23,929 bases of DNA from a virus. Below are positions 1 through 23,734 of the stretch, piece by piece (position 1 is the first letter of the stretch; the number at the start of each line of letters is the position of its first letter). The notes under the pieces were generated by a model, which had not been told where the DNA came from, ran no database searches, and saw only the letters and a program-made list of their open reading frames with translations. Both the position numbers and the translations under genes were made by a program. The stretch covers positions 1-23,929 of IMG/VR virus record IMGVR_UViG_3300025889_000944. One strand, 5' to 3'.

Positions 1-363
1 ACCACTATTAGGTTCTCCATCTTTCCAAAATTCTAATATTAATTGGTCAAAATCACAATGGTTCTGAATCCACAAAGCTACTTCAAGATTTGATACACCA
101 GCTATTTCAAAGTCTGCGGCTTCTCCTAAACAATGTTGTGATGTTGCTTTTGAACCTATTGCTTCTGATAATTCTGGGCTTCTATAACCAGATGTAATTG
201 TAACAGGCTTATCAAACTTAACTCTTACAGGCTCTAATACCTCATAACAAAGATCGCCTAGATTTTTAATCTCTCCACTACCAGCTTTATTAGTTATACC
301 TTTTCTTGTAGCAGTTTGTGATTTTTCAAATTCTTCTAATGTAAAATGTTTTGATAATTGCAT
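1..363 (-). CDS. M15-family zinc peptidase, probable endolysin (3' end missing)
   Basis: The first 121 codons of a gene that runs off the left edge; the ATG is at 363, preceded by an AAAGGA-type ribosome binding site in the 13-base gap. Seen: near residues 58-85 the protein has SGYRSPEL, then SQHCLGEAADFE, with H77 and D84 spaced as in the zinc site of the Peptidase_M15_3 / D-Ala-D-Ala carboxypeptidase fold. The third ligand, a late His, would lie beyond the window. Known of the family: these enzymes cut peptidoglycan peptide cross-links, and phages use them as endolysins. There is no signal peptide, so it would need a holin or pinholin to reach the wall. It follows the fibre genes and is the last gene seen in the operon, a usual place for a lysin. 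A virion-associated muralytic enzyme is the alternative. Confidence 0.85.
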   Translation of the reverse strand, partial: MQLSKHFTLEEFEKSQTATRKGITNKAGSGEIKNLGDLCYEVLEPVRVKFDKPVTITSGYRSPELSEAIGSKATSQHCLGEAADFEIAGVSNLEVALWIQNHCDFDQLILEFWKDGEPNSG

Positions 364-17465: not shown

Positions 17466-18704
17466 TTACTTCATTGTCCATCTTGTAGGAGAATTAAATC
17501 TTGCCTGTGTGGTTAATGGTTTTAAATAATCAATCATGTAACCAAGTGCGTCGTTCATATGATCGAATCCATCTTCCTTATCAGGAATATTTGTATTCTC
17601 CTTGTATATTTGTCTAGTAAGTCCTTTTATCAGCACTTTTAAATTATTACAAACAAAAATATGACGATCTCCTTTAGAATCTTTAAGCCTACTATTAACT
17701 GCATTCACTCTATCTCGTATAGCTGGGTGTTTGTGTTTTACCTTAACTTTAAATCCAGCATTTTGTAAAATAGATAAATCAGTTCTACCACCAGCAGAAG
17801 TTTTACGTTGTTTAGAAGCTGGGTCAGGGTAAGCAATTATTTGTGCTTTACTTCCATATCTATCTCTAATCTCTTGTACTAATTCATCAGTATTACTTCC
17901 ATAAATAACTATCTCATCTATAAAATATAATTTTTCTTTTTCTATTTGAGCAACACAACACGACATGGGATCGACATTAAAATCGACCCCAAGATGAAAG
18001 GGTTTAGTCCAATCAATTTCTCTTGGCTTAACAACATTATCAACAGGGTGGAAATTATAATAAACACTACCAGCATAGTTTTCAAATGTACCCTCAAACT
18101 CTTGTCTAAAAGTTCTAATATCAATATCTTGTTTAGCTTGTTCTATTTCTTCTGGTGTAACCATACCACCTTGAATAGTAGTGAATTGGTAACTATCCCA
18201 TTCATCATCTTGCTTACCTTTAAGATACATTTCATAACTCCAATTACCATAACCTTTAGGAGTACCACACATTAAAACACTTCCTAATGTATCAGCAACA
18301 CTAGCACGTAAAACTTCAAACCATGCTCGTTTATCTATATCTGCAAACTCATCTAATATTAAAAAGTTAATTCCTGAACCTCTTAATGAGTCATAATTAT
18401 CTGCACCTTTTAATGAGATTGTACTATTAGATTTTCTTATCGTAATAGTCATAGTGGTTTCGTTAATATCTTCTATCCAATTAAATTGATTAAGCATTTC
18501 TTTTAAACTAGCCCATGCAATCTCTTTAGCCATTTTAAACGTGGGTGCTACATACCATATTTTTTGTTTAGTTTTAGATGCGTACTTCATCATCTCTGTT
18601 ATACAAAGATAAGTTTTACCAAATCTACGACCTGATATTAAGACTCTAAATCTAGCTTCTGAATTACTTACTTTAAGCTGGGGTTTTGTCAGGGATATTT
18701 TCAT
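17466..18704 (-). CDS. terL: Terminase large subunit
   Basis: A 412-aa DNA packaging motor with intact motifs. Seen: Walker A SGRRFGKT at 24-31; an adenine-contact region around 50-55 (WYVAPT); Walker B FLILDE at 114-119 with D118 and E119; motif III GTPKG at 147-151. In the nuclease half are D241 and D245 (LGVDFNVDP), YPDP at 292-295 and D381 (FDHMNDALGY). These fit the Terminase_6N plus RNase H-like nuclease layout. The ATG overlaps the end of the 73-aa exported gene by 32 bases, and no strong ribosome binding site is visible, so the start is the only ATG that keeps a normal N-terminus. The small terminase lies over 3.5 kb upstream, which is unusual. Confidence 0.93.
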   Translation of the reverse strand: MKISLTKPQLKVSNSEARFRVLISGRRFGKTYLCITEMMKYASKTKQKIWYVAPTFKMAKEIAWASLKEMLNQFNWIEDINETTMTITIRKSNSTISLKGADNYDSLRGSGINFLILDEFADIDKRAWFEVLRASVADTLGSVLMCGTPKGYGNWSYEMYLKGKQDDEWDSYQFTTIQGGMVTPEEIEQAKQDIDIRTFRQEFEGTFENYAGSVYYNFHPVDNVVKPREIDWTKPFHLGVDFNVDPMSCCVAQIEKEKLYFIDEIVIYGSNTDELVQEIRDRYGSKAQIIAYPDPASKQRKTSAGGRTDLSILQNAGFKVKVKHKHPAIRDRVNAVNSRLKDSKGDRHIFVCNNLKVLIKGLTRQIYKENTNIPDKEDGFDHMNDALGYMIDYLKPLTTQARFNSPTRWTMK

Positions 18705-18894
18705 TACAGAAATAAGTAATATATAGTTTATCCTTATTTATTTTTTCTTCCTGTCTTGTTGCATATTCAATAGTTAATTGACTTCCACCTATAACACATT
18801 CTGTCCATGTATTAAATTCTTTATCAACTGTCATTGTATTGTTACAATAGCCTGTAATTGCTGAACAGATACTAAAAGCTAATATAAATTTCAT
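18673..18894 (-). CDS. Small exported Cys-containing protein (73 aa)
   Basis: A 73-aa protein whose ATG overlaps the stop of the TM-coiled-coil gene (TAATG). Seen: MKFILAFSICSAITGYC, a short hydrophobic signal-like start. The mature part is charged and has two more Cys (TECVIGG; YITYFCNE). A lipobox is not clear, although a Cys near 10 follows a hydrophobic run. The gene end overlaps the terminase large subunit. No family known to me with a function; similar small exported proteins occur in marine phages. Overlapping the TM-coiled-coil gene, it could be the outer partner of a spanin-like pair. That is inference only. Confidence 0.65.
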   Translation of the reverse strand: MKFILAFSICSAITGYCNNTMTVDKEFNTWTECVIGGSQLTIEYATRQEEKINKDKLYITYFCNENIPDKTPA

Positions 18895-19166
18895 TAACCT
18901 AATGGGTTCTTATTAGATTCTTTTAACTCTTGTATCTCTAATTTTAATACTTCTATTTCTTTTTGCATTATAGCAATCTCTTTGTCTTGATTTGTTATTG
19001 CAGAAGCATTTGTTTCTATTCCAGATATATCAGGTGCAGTAGCAGTTGATAATTGTTCTATTGTAGATTCCATCTTTGCAAACTTTGTAAATCCAGCACC
19101 AATAGATGCAATAAGACCTAGTATTACAACTATGTTTGTTAGATTGTCTTGTATTTTTTTAACCAT
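18894..19166 (-). CDS. Membrane protein with periplasmic coiled coil (90 aa)
   Basis: A 90-aa protein with a GGAG ribosome binding site before the ATG. Seen: MVKKIQDNLTNIVVILGLIA, with a hydrophobic segment at about 11-27, basic residues before it, and then a long coiled coil from about 55 to 84 (KEIAIMQKEIEVLKLEIQEL). The short N-terminus, single TM and outward coil match the layout of inner-membrane spanin subunits and of some holins, but they are also common in small anchors. It overlaps the 438-aa gene by eight bases and the 73-aa exported gene by one. Function unproven. Confidence 0.68.
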   Translation of the reverse strand: MVKKIQDNLTNIVVILGLIASIGAGFTKFAKMESTIEQLSTATAPDISGIETNASAITNQDKEIAIMQKEIEVLKLEIQELKESNKNPLG

Positions 19167-20475
19167 TTTTTAACTCCTGTAATTCTAAAAGTAATAGCCT
19201 TTTTTTAGACTTAATTTCATTTAGTTTTTTTATCTTAACTTCCATTATATCATTAGCAATATATTCTACTAAATCAACATTAGTATATATAGACCTATTA
19301 TCAAATATCTCTATCTGATTCAAATAAATATCTTTAGGCTTGTAAAACTCGGTATTATTATAAGCAGATAATGATACTTGGTCATTCTGCATAGCATCTA
19401 ATTTAATAATGTTTTTAATAGTTAAGTTTTTTGCACTATCTTTAATCTGTTCATCTACTTTAGCCATAATCTTGTCTATTTTAGGTTTCTTTGTTTTCTT
19501 CTTTGCTACCTTTGTTTTAATCTCTTTTTTAGGTGCTTCTTGACTAGATTCTTCAACAATTTCTTCCTCTTGTATTTCTTCCTCTTTTTCCTCAACAGCT
19601 TCTTCCATAATTTCTTCGGTAATCATTTCTTCTTCTAGCTTTTCCTCAATCATAGTTTCTTCCATAACCTCTGGTTTTTTCTCTATAATTTCTGGTTCTT
19701 TTTCTGGCATAGATACAATCTCAATAGATTCTTCTACTTCAAATACTTCTTCTAGTTTAGGTTCTTCTTTAATCTCAAATGTAAATTCTTCTTCTAATTT
19801 TATTTCTTTAAATGTTTCTTCTTGTAATTCCTCAAAGACATTGTTTATTTCTTCTATTATCTCATTAGATATAACTTCATCATCATAAGTCATAGTAACA
19901 ACAATATTATCTACATTAGCACCACCTAGATTAGAGGGTGCATTAGCATCTGTACCAGCTATATTTAGATTACCAAGATTAGAATCTTGTCCATTGTATA
20001 TAAGTCTATCTGTAAAGTTAGCACCATTGATTCCTGTAACATCAGTTCTAATAGTAGTGTTTGTAGCTAATACATTGCCATCTGAATCTTTTATTTTTAA
20101 TGTAATTGTAAATGTGTCTGCATTACCACTACCACCCCAACAACCAGCTACTCCACATTCTCCATTTTGTACTTCTACTGTGCTGTTAAGAGTTATGCCA
20201 TTATTAAGCATAGTTTGATTTATAGAATCAGTAGTTAAATTAAACTGTTGTTCTATTGAGCCACTATCTCCAAACTCTAAATCATAATTTGATGATACAC
20301 CATTAAGTTCACAGCAATCATTTAATACTTGGACATCTCCATTAGTAGTCCAACCATTAGCATTTCCTGTTTCAAAGTTGCCGTTAGTTATTAAATTATT
20401 TGTCGTCTTTTCTTCTGCTAAAGAAGTTGTAAGGGTTAACATCATCAACAAAACGATTGATACGATATACTGCAT
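19159..20475 (-). CDS. Exported Glu-rich protein with jelly-roll-like N-terminal domain (438 aa)
   Basis: I recognise the type from marine phage contigs but not a function. Seen: a signal peptide with probable cut after SLA at residue 20. A domain at about 25-200 starts NLITNGNFETGNANGWTTNG, like carbohydrate-binding jelly rolls, and has C54-C55 and C107/C112, possible disulfides. A Glu-rich low-complexity stretch at about 205-315 follows, then a Lys-rich patch (KTKVAKKKTKKPK) and a helical end with KKRLLLLELQELKNG. This is a periplasmic layout: folded head, long charged spacer, basic part. AGGAG lies nine bases before the ATG. The first 80 bases overlap a 38-aa frame. It sits in the membrane cassette. 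Spanning of the periplasm or binding of cell-wall sugar is possible; both are guesses. Confidence 0.72.
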   Translation of the reverse strand: MQYIVSIVLLMMLTLTTSLAEEKTTNNLITNGNFETGNANGWTTNGDVQVLNDCCELNGVSSNYDLEFGDSGSIEQQFNLTTDSINQTMLNNGITLNSTVEVQNGECGVAGCWGGSGNADTFTITLKIKDSDGNVLATNTTIRTDVTGINGANFTDRLIYNGQDSNLGNLNIAGTDANAPSNLGGANVDNIVVTMTYDDEVISNEIIEEINNVFEELQEETFKEIKLEEEFTFEIKEEPKLEEVFEVEESIEIVSMPEKEPEIIEKKPEVMEETMIEEKLEEEMITEEIMEEAVEEKEEEIQEEEIVEESSQEAPKKEIKTKVAKKKTKKPKIDKIMAKVDEQIKDSAKNLTIKNIIKLDAMQNDQVSLSAYNNTEFYKPKDIYLNQIEIFDNRSIYTNVDLVEYIANDIMEVKIKKLNEIKSKKRLLLLELQELKNG

Positions 20476-20512
20476 ATGCCATTACTCCTATAAAAATTAC
20501 TAACCAAATCAT
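20396..20512 (-). CDS. Nested 38-aa membrane peptide overlapping the 438-aa gene
   Basis: A 38-aa frame whose ATG overlaps the stop of the 60-aa membrane gene (ATGA). Its last 80 bases lie inside the signal peptide region of the 438-aa gene in another frame. Seen: MIWLVIFIGVMAYAVYRI, a clear hydrophobic segment, then NRFVDDVNPYNFFSRRKDDK, a polar charged end. This is a hydrophobic head with a short cytoplasmic or periplasmic tail. It is too short for standard gene finders. Support: exact stop-start coupling, hydrophobicity and charge layout, and it fills the otherwise empty gap 20476-20508. It could be a holin, antiholin or small regulator; unproven. Confidence 0.5.
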   Translation of the reverse strand: MIWLVIFIGVMAYAVYRINRFVDDVNPYNFFSRRKDDK

Positions 20513-20691
20513 TTACTCATTAACCTATCCATATGAGCATAGATTCTACCAATTACTTTATCCATACCTAATATCTCTTGTTGTAGCATAGCCACTAATG
20601 ATTGTAACTCAACTAATGTAATTAAAACCCATGTAGATAATCCCATTAGTATTGTGCCTAATAATGGTACTATCCATTTATTGTTTTTCAT
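20509..20691 (-). CDS. Single-TM, coiled-coil protein, holin or spanin-like (60 aa)
   Basis: A 60-aa protein, MKNNKWIVPLLGTILMGLST.... I use the ATG at 20691, which overlaps the upstream stop (ATGA); the frame also opens at TTG 20706, but coupling favours the ATG. Seen: one hydrophobic segment at about 7-27 after a basic start, then a helix with heptad-like leucines (VELQSLVAMLQQEILGMDKV), which ends basic. Size and topology fit a small class III-like holin or an inner spanin part. Known: holins are diverse and cannot be called by sequence alone. Neighbours are other exported or membrane genes, which supports an envelope role. Confidence 0.65.
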   Translation of the reverse strand: MKNNKWIVPLLGTILMGLSTWVLITLVELQSLVAMLQQEILGMDKVIGRIYAHMDRLMSK

Positions 20692-21332
20692 TTTGGTTCT
20701 GTCCAAATAATAGGTTTTTTCTTCGGTAAAATCATTTGCTCTTTTTCTAATCTCTTATCTATCTTTTCTCTTTTTTTAATTCGTTTTACATATGTTTCAA
20801 AGTCTGGTCTTTCAAATTCATATTTATTCCATATAGCAAGTGCTTCTTTGCCAATCTTTCCATCTACTGGACAAGGAGTTCCAGCATTAATCATAGCTTC
20901 AAAGACTCGTTCATCTTGGCATAATAAAGCAACAGAGCCTACTTTCATTCCAAAGTCATATAATACTTTAGCTAATTTAATTCTTTCACAGTTCATATCT
21001 CTATTAGTTTTACCACCAGAGAATCCTGTACCAAATGTTTGAATACCTACTGATACTCCTGTTGCACAGACATCTTGGCTTTGTGCAGAGAATGATGGTG
21101 CAGACGCAGTAGGTGGTGCTGATCTAATGTTAGAGTTAGAGGTAGAGTTCGTTGTAGTATTTGATGATGACCCTGATTGGTAAGTAGTAGTCGCAGTAGA
21201 TTCATAGCCACCCTCGATTGCAGTATTTGACCCTGATACATTTGATTGAGTAGAACCTGAATGTGCTGGTCTAACAAATAAAGCTAATAAGCACATAAGA
21301 ACAATTAATATTCCTGTAAAATAATAGTTCAT
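20688..21332 (-). CDS. Exported Ser/Thr-rich protein with C-terminal four-Cys domain (214 aa)
   Basis: The start at 21332 follows a GAGGA ribosome binding site eight bases upstream; an ATG at 21347 in the same frame lacks one. Seen: a hydrophobic signal segment at about 5-20, a probable signal peptidase site near AHS-G, then a Ser/Thr/Asn-rich linker to residue 80. From about 85 on is a folded domain with four cysteines (C89, C115, C138, C154) and text such as TNRDMNCERIKLAKVLYDFG, ALLCQDERVFEAM and PCPVDGKIGKEALAIWNKYE. This domain is familiar to me from many marine phages, where it is called hypothetical. The C-terminus is very basic. A periplasmic role is inferred from the signal peptide and possible disulfides. 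Confidence 0.72.
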   Translation of the reverse strand: MNYYFTGILIVLMCLLALFVRPAHSGSTQSNVSGSNTAIEGGYESTATTTYQSGSSSNTTTNSTSNSNIRSAPPTASAPSFSAQSQDVCATGVSVGIQTFGTGFSGGKTNRDMNCERIKLAKVLYDFGMKVGSVALLCQDERVFEAMINAGTPCPVDGKIGKEALAIWNKYEFERPDFETYVKRIKKREKIDKRLEKEQMILPKKKPIIWTEPK

Positions 21333-21340
21333 AGTTGTTA

Positions 21341-21345
21341 TCCTC
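21341..21345 (-). promoter_or_regulatory. Ribosome binding site deciding the start of the four-Cys exported protein
   Basis: GAGGA on the minus strand lies inside the first codons of the longer frame and eight bases before the ATG at 21332. It supports the shorter protein, since the ATG at 21347 has only AT-rich sequence before it. Confidence 0.55.
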
Positions 21346-21350
21346 ATAAA

Positions 21351-21458
21351 TTACTTTTTCTTTTTCTTTTTAGGTACATCTGAAATAAATCTATCAAATA
21401 AATAACCCATACAATTATCTATCATTCCAAATAATCTATAAAAAAATTGATCTATCAT
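21351..21458 (-). CDS. Small protein, 35 aa, poly-Lys end
   Basis: A 35-aa frame starting with an ATG that overlaps the upstream stop (ATGA). Seen: MIDQFFYRLFGMIDNCMGYL, an amphipathic aromatic helix, followed by FDRFISDV and six lysines at the end. It fills the gap 21351-21454, ending 18 bases before the next start. No homolog recognised. An amphipathic helix with a basic end could lie on a membrane. Coding is likely from the coupled start and composition, but not certain. Confidence 0.5.
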   Translation of the reverse strand: MIDQFFYRLFGMIDNCMGYLFDRFISDVPKKKKKK

Positions 21459-21727
21459 ATCTTAAATCCTTTTTTCCATGATTGTATTGCCCAATAAGCT
21501 GGAGATAAATTCTTCTGACCTTTTACTTTAGCAAGTATTGGTCTAAATCTTGCCATAAATGATCTTTGTCTAGCTGGTATATTCTTTTTGATAGACATAG
21601 TTTTAGAGCCAAAATTAACTTTCTTAACTCTGCCTGTACTTCTGTCTTTTACAAATACTTTAAACTTCTTAACATCTCCACGAGATGGTTTATTAAGTTT
21701 TACAGTTCTATTTTTATATTTAGCCAT
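21455..21727 (-). CDS. Basic protein of a marine-phage family lacking its usual Cys
   Basis: A 90-aa very basic protein. Seen: KKFKVFVKDRSTGRVKKVNF, then GSKTMSIKKNIPARQRSFMA, and at the end SPAYWAIQSWKKGF. This resembles a small family that I remember from many marine phages (KKFKVYVKD ... VNFG ... MSI ... P.R.KSF.AR ... YWSC..W), usually with Cys/His near the end that could bind zinc. Here those positions are hydrophobic or other residues, so metal binding looks lost. Function of the family is not known to me; a nucleic-acid or structural role is only inferred from the charge. No good ribosome binding site. Confidence 0.6.
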   Translation of the reverse strand: MAKYKNRTVKLNKPSRGDVKKFKVFVKDRSTGRVKKVNFGSKTMSIKKNIPARQRSFMARFRPILAKVKGQKNLSPAYWAIQSWKKGFKI

Positions 21728-21747
21728 GTGGCATAAATATCACAAAA

Positions 21748-21957
21748 CTATCTCTTAAAGAACCTTTTTCTCCATTCGTGGCAAACGTAAGTATCTTTAA
21801 CCCCTTTACTTCCCCACCTACCACAGAATGATCTTTTGTTAGAATATAAACCACAGTTACCACAGGCTTCTGGCTTCATACTTTTATGAAAAGATTGTGG
21901 TAGAGAATAATCTATTATCTCTCCATTAGGATAAAAATTACTTCGTTTCTGTTCCAT
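21748..21957 (-). CDS. Small four-Cys protein, HiPIP-like motif (69 aa)
   Basis: A 69-aa protein, MEQKRSNFYPNGEIIDYSLP.... Seen: cysteines 32, 35, 45 and 59 in the order C-x2-C-x9-C-x13-C-x2-W (ACGNCGLYS; SFCGRWG; VCHEWRKR). High-potential iron-sulfur proteins have a similar C-x2-C-xn-C-xn-C-x2-W layout around a 4Fe-4S cluster; a zinc ribbon is the alternative. No signal peptide is visible, so if it holds an iron-sulfur cluster it would be made in the cytoplasm. It lies between the coiled-coil 61-mer, which it overlaps by 20 bases, and the basic 90-mer. Confidence 0.65.
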   Translation of the reverse strand: MEQKRSNFYPNGEIIDYSLPQSFHKSMKPEACGNCGLYSNKRSFCGRWGSKGVKDTYVCHEWRKRFFKR

Positions 21958-22123
21958 GCTCTATTAGCTTTCTTAAATCTTTTGCTATTTGTAATGCTTT
22001 GTTTAATTTTCTTAAAGCTATATCTCGTTGTATCTTAACTTGTTCACACTCTGCTCTTGCTTGATCTCTCTCTTGTCTTAATTTTAAAAAAGTATTCTCT
22101 CCTATTTTATTTACCTTGTCCAC
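21938..22123 (-). CDS. Small coiled-coil protein (61 aa, GTG start)
   Basis: A 61-aa frame without any later Met, so the start is the GTG at 22123; an AGGA-type ribosome binding site lies about eight bases upstream. Seen: the whole chain is one charged helix with heptad character (LKLRQERDQARAECEQVKIQ, then RDIALRKLNKALQIAKDLRK), with one Cys. No family recognised. It overlaps the upstream 51-mer by 17 bases and the downstream four-Cys gene by 20. It may be a dimerising partner of a small packaging or regulatory protein; function unknown. Confidence 0.6.
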   Translation of the reverse strand: MDKVNKIGENTFLKLRQERDQARAECEQVKIQRDIALRKLNKALQIAKDLRKLIEHGTETK

Positions 22124-22262
22124 GATCTTTTCCTTTCCCTCGTTGTCTGCGTTTATTTTTATTCATTGTACTTGTTATTGGTTTTCTACCAATAGAAGTT
22201 CCTTTTACAGTTTTAGTGTATTCAACAGTTGCACCAAATAAATTACCTTTTTTTTTTGCCAT
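22107..22262 (-). CDS. Basic 51-aa protein overlapping the small terminase end
   Basis: A 51-aa frame starting MAKKKGNLFGATVEYTKTVK and ending in Arg/Lys/Gly-rich text (NKNKRRQRGKGKDRGQGK). It overlaps the terminase gene by 20 bases, where a run of ten A codes for Lys in both frames. GAAGA in the terminase codons may serve as a weak ribosome binding site. The composition and the tight fit into the gap support coding. No homolog known; a basic peptide next to the small terminase could touch DNA. A slip on the A run would fuse it to the terminase. Confidence 0.55.
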   Translation of the reverse strand: MAKKKGNLFGATVEYTKTVKGTSIGRKPITSTMNKNKRRQRGKGKDRGQGK

Positions 22263-22629
22263 CTTCTATTTCTTCAGCTTTAGCATCTATTATTAATGGT
22301 AATGGTTCAACAATAGACTCGGTTTGTGTTCTATCTTTCATGCCTAGATAGTTTTTACTTAACCAAATCTGCATATGGGTATTATCTTTTTTAACAGCCT
22401 TATCCCACATCTTCTTTCTTAAACTAGCTTTACCCTTTTCTTTAAACTGCTCTACAATATCTGCATAATTTCGTTTAAGTGTTTTAGCTGATATATTTAA
22501 TACACTAGCAATTTCATAGTCTGGACAGCCAATAGATGCTAGATTCTTTAAGATTTCTATATCGACCACTATTTTGGGTCTACCAGCACCTTGCCTCTTT
22601 ACTGTCTTATTTGCCTTAATTTTGTCCAT
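22243..22629 (-). CDS. terS: Probable terminase small subunit (HTH protein)
   Basis: A 128-aa protein. Seen: a basic N-terminus KRQGAGRPKIVVDIEILKNL, then a helix-turn-helix CPDYEIASVLNISAKTLKRN (about 35-55), helices KGKASLRKKMWDKAVKKDNT and MQIWLSKNYLGMKDRTQ, and a charged end. GRP-K, the HTH and WLSKNYLGM are common in phage small terminase and DNA-binding packaging proteins. Known: TerS recognises the pac or cos site and feeds DNA to TerL. Unlike most phages, it is not next to terL; eleven small genes lie between. Its start overlaps the methylase end by 14 bases. A related transcription regulator is the alternative. Confidence 0.78.
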   Translation of the reverse strand: MDKIKANKTVKRQGAGRPKIVVDIEILKNLASIGCPDYEIASVLNISAKTLKRNYADIVEQFKEKGKASLRKKMWDKAVKKDNTHMQIWLSKNYLGMKDRTQTESIVEPLPLIIDAKAEEIEDGKKKR

Positions 22630-23734
22630 TTTCCAACTCTGCTTTCATTCCTGTAAAGTTCTCCCATCTCTTAATTATAATATCACAGTATATAGGGTCA
22701 AACTCCATAATAAAACAATCTAAATTATGTTTTTCTCCAGCAATTAATGTACTTCCTGAACCACCAAAATAATCAGCTATTGTTTTAGATGTTAAATTAA
22801 ATCTTTTAATAATCCATTCCATTAATGATACTGGTTTTTGGGTTGGGTGTACTCTATTTTTCTTCTCTGATGATTGAGTAAATTGTCTAACAACAGATCT
22901 AAAATTACCCCATGCTAACTCACAATCGGTTTGATCGGATTGTCCATTGTTTTTATCCCATACAAGCCAACATTCACTGTCAGGTAAAACAGAACAATAA
23001 TAATTTGCACCCCACCATATTTGCTTTGCGTTAGGATATAAACCATATATTAATTTAAAAGAGTCTTTTGCAATTTCATTATTATCATCTCCCAAAATAT
23101 CTTTTTTATAATTTTTAGATAAAACACCACTTTTTGATACTGCGTTCATTCCATAAGGAGGGTCAGTATGTATTAAATCAGGATATACTCCATTCATAAG
23201 TTTATCAACATCTGTTAAATTTGTACTATCCCCACACATAACTCTATGATTACCAAGTTTCCAAATATCTCCTAGTTTAGATATAGGTTCTTCAGGTGCT
23301 TCAGGAACTTCATCTTCATCAGTTAAACCTTGTTTCTCGTCAAATAATATATCATTTAATTGATCTTCGTTAAAACCTAATAAGTCTAATTTAAAATCTT
23401 TAGCTTCTAATTCTTTTATTTCCATTTTAAGTAATTCACTATCCCACTCGGATTCTTCAGCAGTTCTATTATCAGCTATTCTATATGCGTTTATCTGTTC
23501 AGGTGTAAGATTGTCAGCAATAGTTATTGGTACTTCTTTCAGACCCAATTTTTTACTTGCTCTATACCTAGTATGTCCAACAACAATAATTCTATCCTTA
23601 TCAATTACAATCGGTTGTCTAAAGCCATATTCTTTTAAAGACATAGCCACCTTTTCAATAGCTGAATCTTTTAATTTTCTTGGGTTATTTTCATAAGGTT
23701 TAATTGTATTTATATCGGCTGTTTCTATCTTCAT
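22616..23734 (-). CDS. ParB-like domain fused to N6-adenine/N4-cytosine DNA methyltransferase
   Basis: A 372-aa protein with two parts. Seen: residues 1-115 are ParB/Srx-like (IKPYENNPRK, SLKEYGFRQPIVIDKDRII, GHTRYRASKKLGL, LTPEQINAYRIADNR). Residues about 150-360 are an MTase in beta-class order: target/catalytic motif DPPY at 191-194 comes first, then HPTQKP at 296-301, then the AdoMet motif DYFGGSGST at 321-329. Known: such ParB-MTase fusions occur in phages and plasmids, usually near packaging genes; methylation can protect DNA from host restriction or mark it. The target sequence cannot be read from the gene. It overlaps the small terminase start, suggesting a link to packaging. Confidence 0.88.
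   Translation of the reverse strand: MKIETADINTIKPYENNPRKLKDSAIEKVAMSLKEYGFRQPIVIDKDRIIVVGHTRYRASKKLGLKEVPITIADNLTPEQINAYRIADNRTAEESEWDSELLKMEIKELEAKDFKLDLLGFNEDQLNDILFDEKQGLTDEDEVPEAPEEPISKLGDIWKLGNHRVMCGDSTNLTDVDKLMNGVYPDLIHTDPPYGMNAVSKSGVLSKNYKKDILGDDNNEIAKDSFKLIYGLYPNAKQIWWGANYYCSVLPDSECWLVWDKNNGQSDQTDCELAWGNFRSVVRQFTQSSEKKNRVHPTQKPVSLMEWIIKRFNLTSKTIADYFGGSGSTLIAGEKHNLDCFIMEFDPIYCDIIIKRWENFTGMKAELENGQN

Follow-up and report, generated by a model that had tools for sequence, protein, structure and literature searches.

Between the terminase small and large subunit genes (terS and terL) of a pelagiphage lies a block of minus-strand genes whose three-gene core (A, C and D) is, from comparison of its sequences across relatives, a real unit that travels as a whole. 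We give even odds to the reading that this block supplies the envelope-disrupting part of a swappable lysis cassette, in which A-C-D would carry out the spanin step without homology to spanins. The window (the whole stretch of DNA analysed, 23,929 nucleotides, IMG/VR record IMGVR_UViG_3300025889_000944) is a fragment from a phage related to HTVC202P, its nearest complete relative, and the host group is SAR11. These are the ocean's most abundant bacteria, and their phages are among the most abundant marine viruses. In cultured SAR11 phage genomes an endolysin is annotated and the remainder is 'hypothetical protein'; in the literature, no account of how these phages open the host outer membrane and no description of the A-C-D module were found.

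Gene content of the terS-terL block

The open reading frames (ORFs) listed between terS and terL in the initial annotation were all present and tightly packed on the minus strand, which is also the strand of terL and the structural genes. The features referred to below are as follows.

1..363, minus: M15 endolysin, incomplete at the record end (ORF; homologue of the HTVC202P peptidase M15; family Pfam PF08291)
17466..18704, minus: terminase large subunit, downstream flank (ORF; HTVC202P orthologue so annotated)
18673..18894, minus: E, 73 aa, four invariant Cys in alignment (phrog_19893, PHROG E 3.8e-27)
18894..19166, minus: D, 90 aa (family alignment, NPL count, profile matches to D')
19159..20475, minus: C, 438 aa (AlphaFold2, Foldseek, homologues)
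20396..20512, minus: 38-aa ORF with a single TM, nested across the 5' end of C (ORF; HTVC202P homologue)
20509..20691, minus: B, 60 aa, TM and short coil (phrog_33111)
20688..21332, minus: A, 214 aa from the second ATG (phrog_20531); 219 aa from the upstream ATG, ending at 21347
21351..21458, minus: P, 35-aa amphipathic peptide with poly-Lys tail (conserved family)
21455..21727, minus: 90-aa basic protein, upstream flank of the slot (phrog_7595)
22243..22629, minus: terminase small subunit, terS (phrog_309, E 9.3e-8)

A, B, C, D, E and the 38-mer are conserved in relatives and are therefore genes rather than chance ORFs; the conserved P had been left out of the original list. The phrog_7595 protein, which occupies the same flank in HTVC202P, HTVC111P, HTVC112P and 026P, is not obviously a member of the module. 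Of the at least six proteins with TM segments or signal peptides that had been counted, A, B, the 38-mer, C and D each have one N-terminal hydrophobic segment, while E is doubtful. In E all four Cys are invariant in eight diverse members, including Cys10 within the hydrophobic N-terminus, which makes cleavage and secretion improbable; E is probably a small disulfide-type protein and not the exported 73-mer first proposed. It is near-universal among cultured pelagiphages, beside terL or near M15 (37 phage records). B is optional, and was found also in HTVC112P (in the same slot) and in Greip, and HTVC202P has a 37-aa homologue of the 38-mer in the same place.

Structure prediction, which had been suggested for the two largest proteins of the block, was informative for C only. 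Behind its signal peptide, C has a jelly-roll of galactose-binding/CBM type at about residues 22-198 (AlphaFold2, Foldseek), a disordered acidic linker at about 222-330 and a conserved helical C-terminus. Linker length did not correlate with the length of D (Spearman 0.19, p 0.13). Profile comparison of two C clades gave only a short match of 31 columns, so it is chiefly by gene position and domain layout that the diverged C proteins are judged homologous; the TonB kinship annotated in MW202481 was rejected, as the diverged C set had no Pfam match. A consists of a signal peptide, a disordered Ser/Thr/Asn-rich region and a helical domain with four invariant Cys, and its AlphaFold2 model was poor (pLDDT 52) and unsuited to fold search. 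Solved structures gave only chance and coiled-coil matches to A and D. A was absent from convincing bacterial chromosomes; its occurrences in MAGs were all on phage-like contigs, which speaks against a bacterial origin, and kinship of A with curli proteins (CsgF/CsgG) was dropped for lack of a family match in Pfam or PHROGs. D has an N-terminal TM segment at 8-28 (by hydropathy), a periplasmic-type coil with coil-type heptads (Pfam coiled-coil matches are weak only) and a C-terminal NPL tail, which is present in 66 of 67 D sequences, the lone exception being a truncated gene. The D model picks up a protein, D', in whole genomes of other pelagiphages (E 3e-7 to 2e-5; hhalign 94%), and by these profile matches D' is a homologue of D. 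The GenBank labels 'lysozyme' for CRP-810 gp51, which is D, and 'OmpA family' for gp53, which is A, are without Pfam or PHROG support.

Inheritance and gene neighbours of A-C-D

The proposed gene-neighbourhood search showed that A, C and D do not occur independently of each other in relatives. Of the 64 loci that extend far enough downstream to be informative, 52 have the order A-C-D, and in 48 of these 52 D immediately follows C. Distance matrices of the three proteins correlate with each other at 0.64-0.72, and that of A with those of pol, g216 and M15 at 0.34-0.47 (the subsets differ). The trio occurs in podoviruses, siphoviruses and myoviruses as well as in roseophages, strongly diverged versions being found in the roseophages and in other marine contigs. 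The block could alternatively be a set of unrelated small membrane genes gathered in a permissive terS-terL insertion site and forming no single system, as suggested by B, the 38-mer, P and E, the presence of which varies between relatives; but the constant order of the trio and its recurrence in diverged form in unrelated phages make this highly improbable for the block, and largely refute it for A-C-D, while it holds for the small companions. The block as a whole is thus not one inseparable unit, its constant part being A-C-D only.

Five unrelated endolysin families (M15, Amidase_2, T4-type lysozyme, the phrog_873 endolysin and GH19) were found beside the trio, and differing holin-like proteins also adjoin it across lineages. 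A recognised endolysin or holin-like gene was present in 20 of the 35 fully visible contexts of A, recognition being by models from the analysis's own clusters only, and the other 15 contained no recognisable lysis gene. Among 69 informative M15 loci, D' lay at most four genes upstream in 48 (4 of which also have D), and the others mostly had a small coil-TM protein in its stead; in HTVC010P the order is M15 - holin-like - D' - x - E'. Adjacency to endolysin or holin genes, as expected of a lysis cassette, was thus seen in most genomes overall and not in the window itself, where, as in HTVC202P, the trio is distant from the endolysin. In some genomes the trio follows the tail-fibre genes, and the jelly-roll of C is similar to tail fibre and tailspike domains (Foldseek), so that the proteins might belong to the virion or to particle release at the surface, for example as an exported lectin-type receptor-binding or glycan-decoration system. 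We regard this as very improbable: Sec-type N-termini (A, C) and a membrane-anchored D are ill-suited to such a role, and D-type TM-coil proteins track endolysins rather than tails.

Exchange at the terS-terL slot and searches for spanins

Between the same flanks (phrog_7595 on one side and E-terL on the other), the slot of the window and of HTVC202P is filled by A-(B)-C-D, that of HTVC111P and 026P by D'-E' and that of HTVC112P by a small coil-TM protein with B; it was occupied in all five HTVC202P-type genomes examined. T7 carries lysis genes between its tail fibre and terS-terL, and T7-like SAR11 phages have D'-E' or A-C-D in this interval. Among isolates, A-C-D and D'-E' are mutually exclusive except in HTVC115P and perhaps 023Pt_psg01, but strict exclusion fails in environmental contigs: many environmental HTVC023P-type genomes carry both, and the two are therefore not simple alternatives.

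A replacement involving a recognised spanin was found in HMO-2011-type roseophages. CRP-345 has the order holin-like - u-spanin - endolysin - terS, its u-spanin (gp68) having a lipobox and C-terminal TM and belonging to the Rz-like phrog_1804, and thereby serving as positive control for the u-spanin layout. CRP-207, of the same group, lacks this u-spanin and has A-C-D beside a homologous holin-like gene (1.7e-25). In one contig, a u-spanin-like protein lies directly upstream of A, and the trio is therefore no spanin replacement there.

The initial annotation had found no holin or spanin candidate elsewhere in the window. Outside the block, membrane-protein scores on the minus strand were reached only by the tape-measure ORF and by a pair of short ORFs overlapping other genes; the endolysin gene is itself cut off by the end of the record, so the absence of a holin says little, and in HTVC202P a pair of holin-like proteins lies immediately downstream of the M15 endolysin. 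A normal holin-spanin set elsewhere in the genome, which would count against the cassette reading, was seen in its holin-like half only: the complete HTVC202P and Baldr genomes contain no lipoprotein spanin candidate (one 32-aa antisense ORF in HTVC202P aside), and no lipobox ORF of at least 30 aa was found near the window cassette in any frame. None of A, B, C, D and E has the u-spanin combination of lipobox and C-terminal TM, and in PHROGs the cassette showed no spanin-family homology (best, D to the Rz-like phrog_739, E 0.029), which is weak evidence because spanin families are very diverse.

Compared with Rz/Rz1 of lambda, D and D' are laid out like an i-spanin (by hydropathy, a single TM behind a short N-terminus, followed by a periplasmic-type coil) and lie near endolysin or holin-like genes; in contrast, the window has no lipoprotein o-spanin adjoining, overlapping or embedded in D, and the cassette adds the large carbohydrate-binding-type C and the disulfide protein A. 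Lipoproteins are present in some other versions, and in CRP-207 and CRP-810 one with the A-type Cys domain adjoins A. Unimolecular spanins include the T1 gp11 type and those of roseophage cobaviruses (PMC6775973); the cassette resembles them in that the CRP-345 u-spanin sits beside the same holin-like gene, and differs in layout, as above.

Possible roles at the host envelope

The proposal of a new lysis or envelope module is thus supported by comparative genomics for A-C-D, which co-travel, adjoin unrelated endolysin and holin-like genes in many lineages and occupy the place that in a sister phage holds a u-spanin; the small companions (B, P, E and the 38-mer) are not constant members. In the scheme that we favour, we infer the topology as far as it goes beyond hydropathy, the formation of a complex, the rupture of the membrane and the timing. 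The inner membrane and the wall would first be opened by a separately encoded holin and by the M15 endolysin. D would be anchored in the inner membrane, with its coiled coil extending into the periplasm and the NPL tail as docking end. C would be secreted, its carbohydrate-binding-type domain holding a glycan (of peptidoglycan or the outer membrane), its acidic linker spanning the periplasm and its C-terminal domain engaging D or A. A, secreted and disulfide-bonded, would act at the outer membrane, a placement suggested by the lipoprotein that shares its Cys domain in the roseophage versions. A, C and D may then pull together and fuse or rupture the outer membrane, which is the job of spanins, done here by unrelated proteins. 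More tentatively, and with somewhat less than even confidence, A-C-D with P could represent a third kind of machinery, besides spanins and disruptins, for disrupting the outer membrane, namely a glycan-binding, periplasm-spanning complex of three proteins; that it is widely used by marine phages, including SAR11 phages without a canonical spanin, we consider conceivable to the same limited degree. As a transferable three-gene module at the position of a spanin, it offers concrete candidates (the NPL tail, the lectin-like fold, the Cys domain and P). If it does break the outer membrane, this spanin-independent lysis would be of broad ecological importance, and the module would be a source of proteins active on that membrane.

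The periplasmic A and C and the anchored D might instead guard the envelope against superinfection, blocking DNA entry or receptor use by competitors. Secreted and membrane-anchored proteins without an enzymatic domain, the lectin-like fold of C, the movement of the module among unrelated phages in the manner of an accessory cassette and the missing spanin homology all agree with this, and such an exclusion system would be among the most widespread in marine phages. Exclusion genes, however, are usually optional and expressed early, whereas the slot is filled in all five HTVC202P-type genomes examined and the genes adjoin endolysin, holin-like and terminase genes; we consider exclusion rather unlikely. 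The cassette matched no named exclusion family in Pfam or PHROGs. In the main text of the transcriptome paper on the related HTVC027P (PMC12753301), the cassette genes are unnamed.

A role in lysis timing, with D or D' as single-TM holin, A (or E) as disulfide-bonded periplasmic antiholin and C sensing the state of the periplasm or surface, also fits the endolysin and holin neighbourhood. A single-TM membrane protein with a small secreted Cys protein presumably resembles T and RI of T4, a likeness that we take as a lead only. This role is unlikely, since many of the genomes concerned (HTVC202P, HTVC033P, HTVC010P and CRP-207) also have separate multi-TM holin-like proteins, C is far too big and elaborate, and no T or RI family match was seen in PHROGs. 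Phage CsgG/CsgF pores have been proposed as lysis regulators in Melnitz (PMC9004378), a similar case in which marine phages of streamlined hosts carry envelope proteins suggested to act in lysis, but no cassette protein matches curli families.

Within the envelope-disruption scheme, P may assist as a cationic membrane-active peptide. Disruptins are cationic phage peptides that disrupt the outer membrane (PMC9239132); P is likewise short, amphipathic and poly-Lys and lies within the cassette; P is perhaps cytoplasmic, and A-C-D are unrelated to disruptins. In pelagiphages the P family is found immediately upstream of A or D': across 114 loci, 24 matches were near A and 1 elsewhere, and P precedes D' in M15 loci and in isolates. 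The poly-Lys peptide family marks the terS-terL slot.

Gene content between the terminase genes

The window spans the entire virus record (23,929 bases), and the cultured pelagiphage HTVC202P matched positions 18400-22000 with 81% DNA identity across 86% of the stretch; on sequence grounds the window is a pelagiphage fragment close to HTVC202P. Overlapping and tightly packed genes filled the terminase interval, in this order:

terS (small terminase), minus strand, phrog_309; one flank of the block
Basic protein of 90 aa, minus strand, between the terminase genes, phrog_7595
P, minus strand, between the terminase genes, 35-mer
A, minus strand, between the terminase genes, 214 aa
B, minus strand, between the terminase genes, 60 aa
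38-mer, minus strand, between the terminase genes
C, minus strand, between the terminase genes, 438 aa
D, minus strand, between the terminase genes, 90 aa
E, minus strand, between the terminase genes, 73 aa
terL (large terminase); other flank of the block

The initial annotation had listed these reading frames correctly overall, except that P was omitted and E was taken for an exported protein. All four Cys residues of E are invariant and one lies inside the hydrophobic N-terminal start, which makes a cleaved, secreted protein unlikely. P (MIDQFFYRLFGMIDNCMGYLFDRFISDVPKKKKKK in the window) is one of a family of poly-Lys-tailed amphipathic peptides and is, by its conservation, a genuine cassette component. 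Across 114 loci, 24 matches to this family fell within -500/+700 bases of A, against one elsewhere in those loci and one in antisense. The family was found before A in HTVC202P and HTVC023P, and upstream of D' (a D homologue of other pelagiphages) in M15 endolysin loci, HTVC022P, HTVC111P and HTVC103P. Just upstream of terS, a 372-aa ORF (22616-23734) showed by eye a ParB-like N-terminus and a DPPYG-type DNA methyltransferase motif.

Unity and anatomy of the A-C-D module

At least 600 stretches in viral contigs were matched by a profile of A. Among 64 loci with at least 3.5 kb downstream of A, C was present in 54 and C followed by D in 52, with D immediately after C in 48 of the latter. Pairwise distances among A, C and D correlated at 0.64-0.72, and those of A with DNA polymerase, g216 or M15 at a lower 0.34-0.47, computed on different subsets. 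Judged from order and distances, A-C-D is a unit, to which B, the 38-mer, P and E may or may not be added. Strongly diverged versions, found in CRP-207 and CRP-810 (phages of Roseobacter) and in several contigs that binning assigned to other marine bacteria, have an unchanged layout: A, a large C-like protein that is secreted, and a protein with TM and coil that has a terminal NPL. No convincing case of A was found in bacterial chromosomes, the bacterial matches being phage-like contigs binned in MAGs.

In A, a signal peptide is followed by a disordered region rich in Ser/Thr/Asn and by a helical domain in which four Cys, none of them in the signal, are invariant. The predicted structure of C comprised a signal peptide, a jelly-roll (about 22-198, pLDDT near 90), a disordered linker (Asp/Glu about one third of residues in 65 C/D pairs) and a conserved helical C-terminus. 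The jelly-roll falls in the galactose-binding/carbohydrate-binding class, with the Fbs1 sugar-binding domain, CBM61, CBM22 and domains of tailspikes; because this fold is widespread, it suggests glycan binding and goes no further. D has a single TM and a coil with a highly variable, often His-rich middle, and ended in NPL in 66 of 67 members, the sole exception being a gene cut short. Many D middles in the D alignment (A6; for example, L072:12222-12584 and L077:12562-12897) contained His-rich segments of variable length, HTHEVGEHKHDTEHGHT, for which metal binding is possible.

Families from the cassette region are already listed in PHROGs with function unknown (phrog_20531, 19893, 33111 and 7595), and C is annotated as 'putative carbohydrate-binding protein' in two records. 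For A and D, Pfam and PDB gave no informative match and PHROGs only families of unknown function. GenBank names on A- and D-type proteins ('OmpA family protein' and 'lysozyme' for CRP-810 gp53 and gp51, 'putative lysozyme' for CRP-207 gp73) found no support in Pfam or PHROGs. No paper describing the module was found in a search of mostly open-access literature.

D' (phrog_20984, 44 phage records) and its partner E' (phrog_24646, 43 records) occurred exclusively in pelagiphages or marine fosmid/single-cell phages. The D profile matched D' in whole genomes (E-values 3e-7 to 2e-5), profile-profile comparison gave 94%, and by these profiles the two are homologous across the TM and early coil. D'-E' was absent from isolates with A-C-D, HTVC115P excepted; in environmental HTVC023P-type contigs the two often coexisted, with D'-E' between A and C. 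HTVC027P gp14 (L096:2801-3334, 177 aa), immediately before D'-E'-M15, has an A-like N-terminus and a different Cys/coil C-terminal part, and is possibly a diverged A.

Genomic neighbourhood and slot replacement

A-C-D occupied the terS-terL interval in the window and HTVC202P, lay between polymerase/g216 and the M15 endolysin in the HTVC023P type, downstream of an amidase and a holin-like protein in HTVC033P, and between a holin-like protein and terS/terL in Votkovvirus AP013540; it was also present in myovirus Mosig and one 328-kb contig. The adjoining endolysins were of unrelated families (M15, Amidase_2, T4-type lysozyme, phrog_873 endolysin and GH19). Where both flanks of the module could be seen (35 contexts), 20 contained an endolysin or holin-like gene; the figure is a minimum, as the models, built from our own clusters, missed the GH19 locus. 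D' lay at most four genes upstream in 48 of 69 informative M15 loci (D too in four of these), a small coil-TM protein replaced it in 19, and two had none. M15, a holin-like protein, D', a 123-aa protein and E' are consecutive in HTVC010P. In loci lacking D/D' (L114, L118, L121, L128, L145 and L160), a coil-then-TM protein of 58-73 aa (MAKKSALQKIESHEKLCRIMQKQ...), with a topology resembling XhlA/holin, directly preceded M15; HTVC202P gp57 is a member of this family.

Five HTVC202P-type genomes shared identical slot flanks, with the phrog_7595 protein at one end and E plus terL at the opposite end, around three alternative fillings: A-(B)-C-D (the window, HTVC202P), D'-E' (HTVC111P, HTVC026P), and a 78-aa coil-TM protein with B (HTVC112P). 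The most direct evidence, from sequence comparison, that A-C-D takes a spanin's place came from two HMO-2011-type roseophages. CRP-345 carries a 2-TM holin-like protein, a u-spanin, an endolysin and terS, the u-spanin, which is annotated spanin2 and matches the Rz-like phrog_1804, being canonical in having both a lipobox and a TM at the C-terminus. In CRP-207, which lacks the u-spanin of CRP-345, A-C-D adjoins a protein homologous to the holin-like one of CRP-345 (42.5% identity, 1.7e-25). In one phage contig binned in a MAG, a 139-aa protein of u-spanin topology (lipobox and C-terminal TM; L184:7370-7789) lies immediately before A, which counts against a simple replacement rule. A lipobox search of the window and the complete HTVC202P and Baldr genomes gave no convincing spanin candidate; other marine alphaproteobacterial phages, the cobaviruses, have canonical spanins according to PMC6775973.

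Proposed role in lysis

The evidence best supports a lysis cassette, in our view built from unrelated parts, in which A-C-D would perform outer-membrane disruption; superinfection exclusion, the barrier function that the initial annotation had offered beside a lysis/envelope module, is a rival for the same exported and membrane-anchored proteins. Further rivals are timing control of the holin/antiholin type and a place among the virion proteins. In the lysis reading, A-C-D would be made late and would form a complex rupturing the outer membrane once holin and endolysin have acted: D would be the inner-membrane anchor, C would span the periplasm and grip glycan, and disulfide-bonded A would lie on the outer-membrane side. 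The main text of an HTVC022P/HTVC027P transcriptome study that bears on timing (PMC12753301) does not name the cassette genes. Tests for both spanin classes placed the cassette in neither, so it is not classed as a spanin, and what is proposed to be shared with spanins is their action. That A-C-D represents machinery of a new kind for disrupting the outer membrane is put forward tentatively, as less likely than not.

A small lipoprotein (LSAC lipobox) adjoined A in about a dozen SAR11-type loci. In CRP-207 (L010:1731-1940) and CRP-810 (L201:2897-3157), an unannotated small lipoprotein overlaps the start of A and is homologous to the Cys domain of A (17-20 bits), which indicates that this domain can ride on a lipoprotein, presumably sited at the outer membrane. 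P may resemble the disruptins, the outer-membrane-disrupting cationic peptides mentioned in PMC9239132. A second companion peptide, MPRPVRKWIVRLRMWYADIRGHHGKRWDYEPSKHYMRKK, strongly cationic and Trp/Arg-rich, directly followed A at L021:1680-1799, L045:4116-4244, L079:1733-1855 and about nine other loci.
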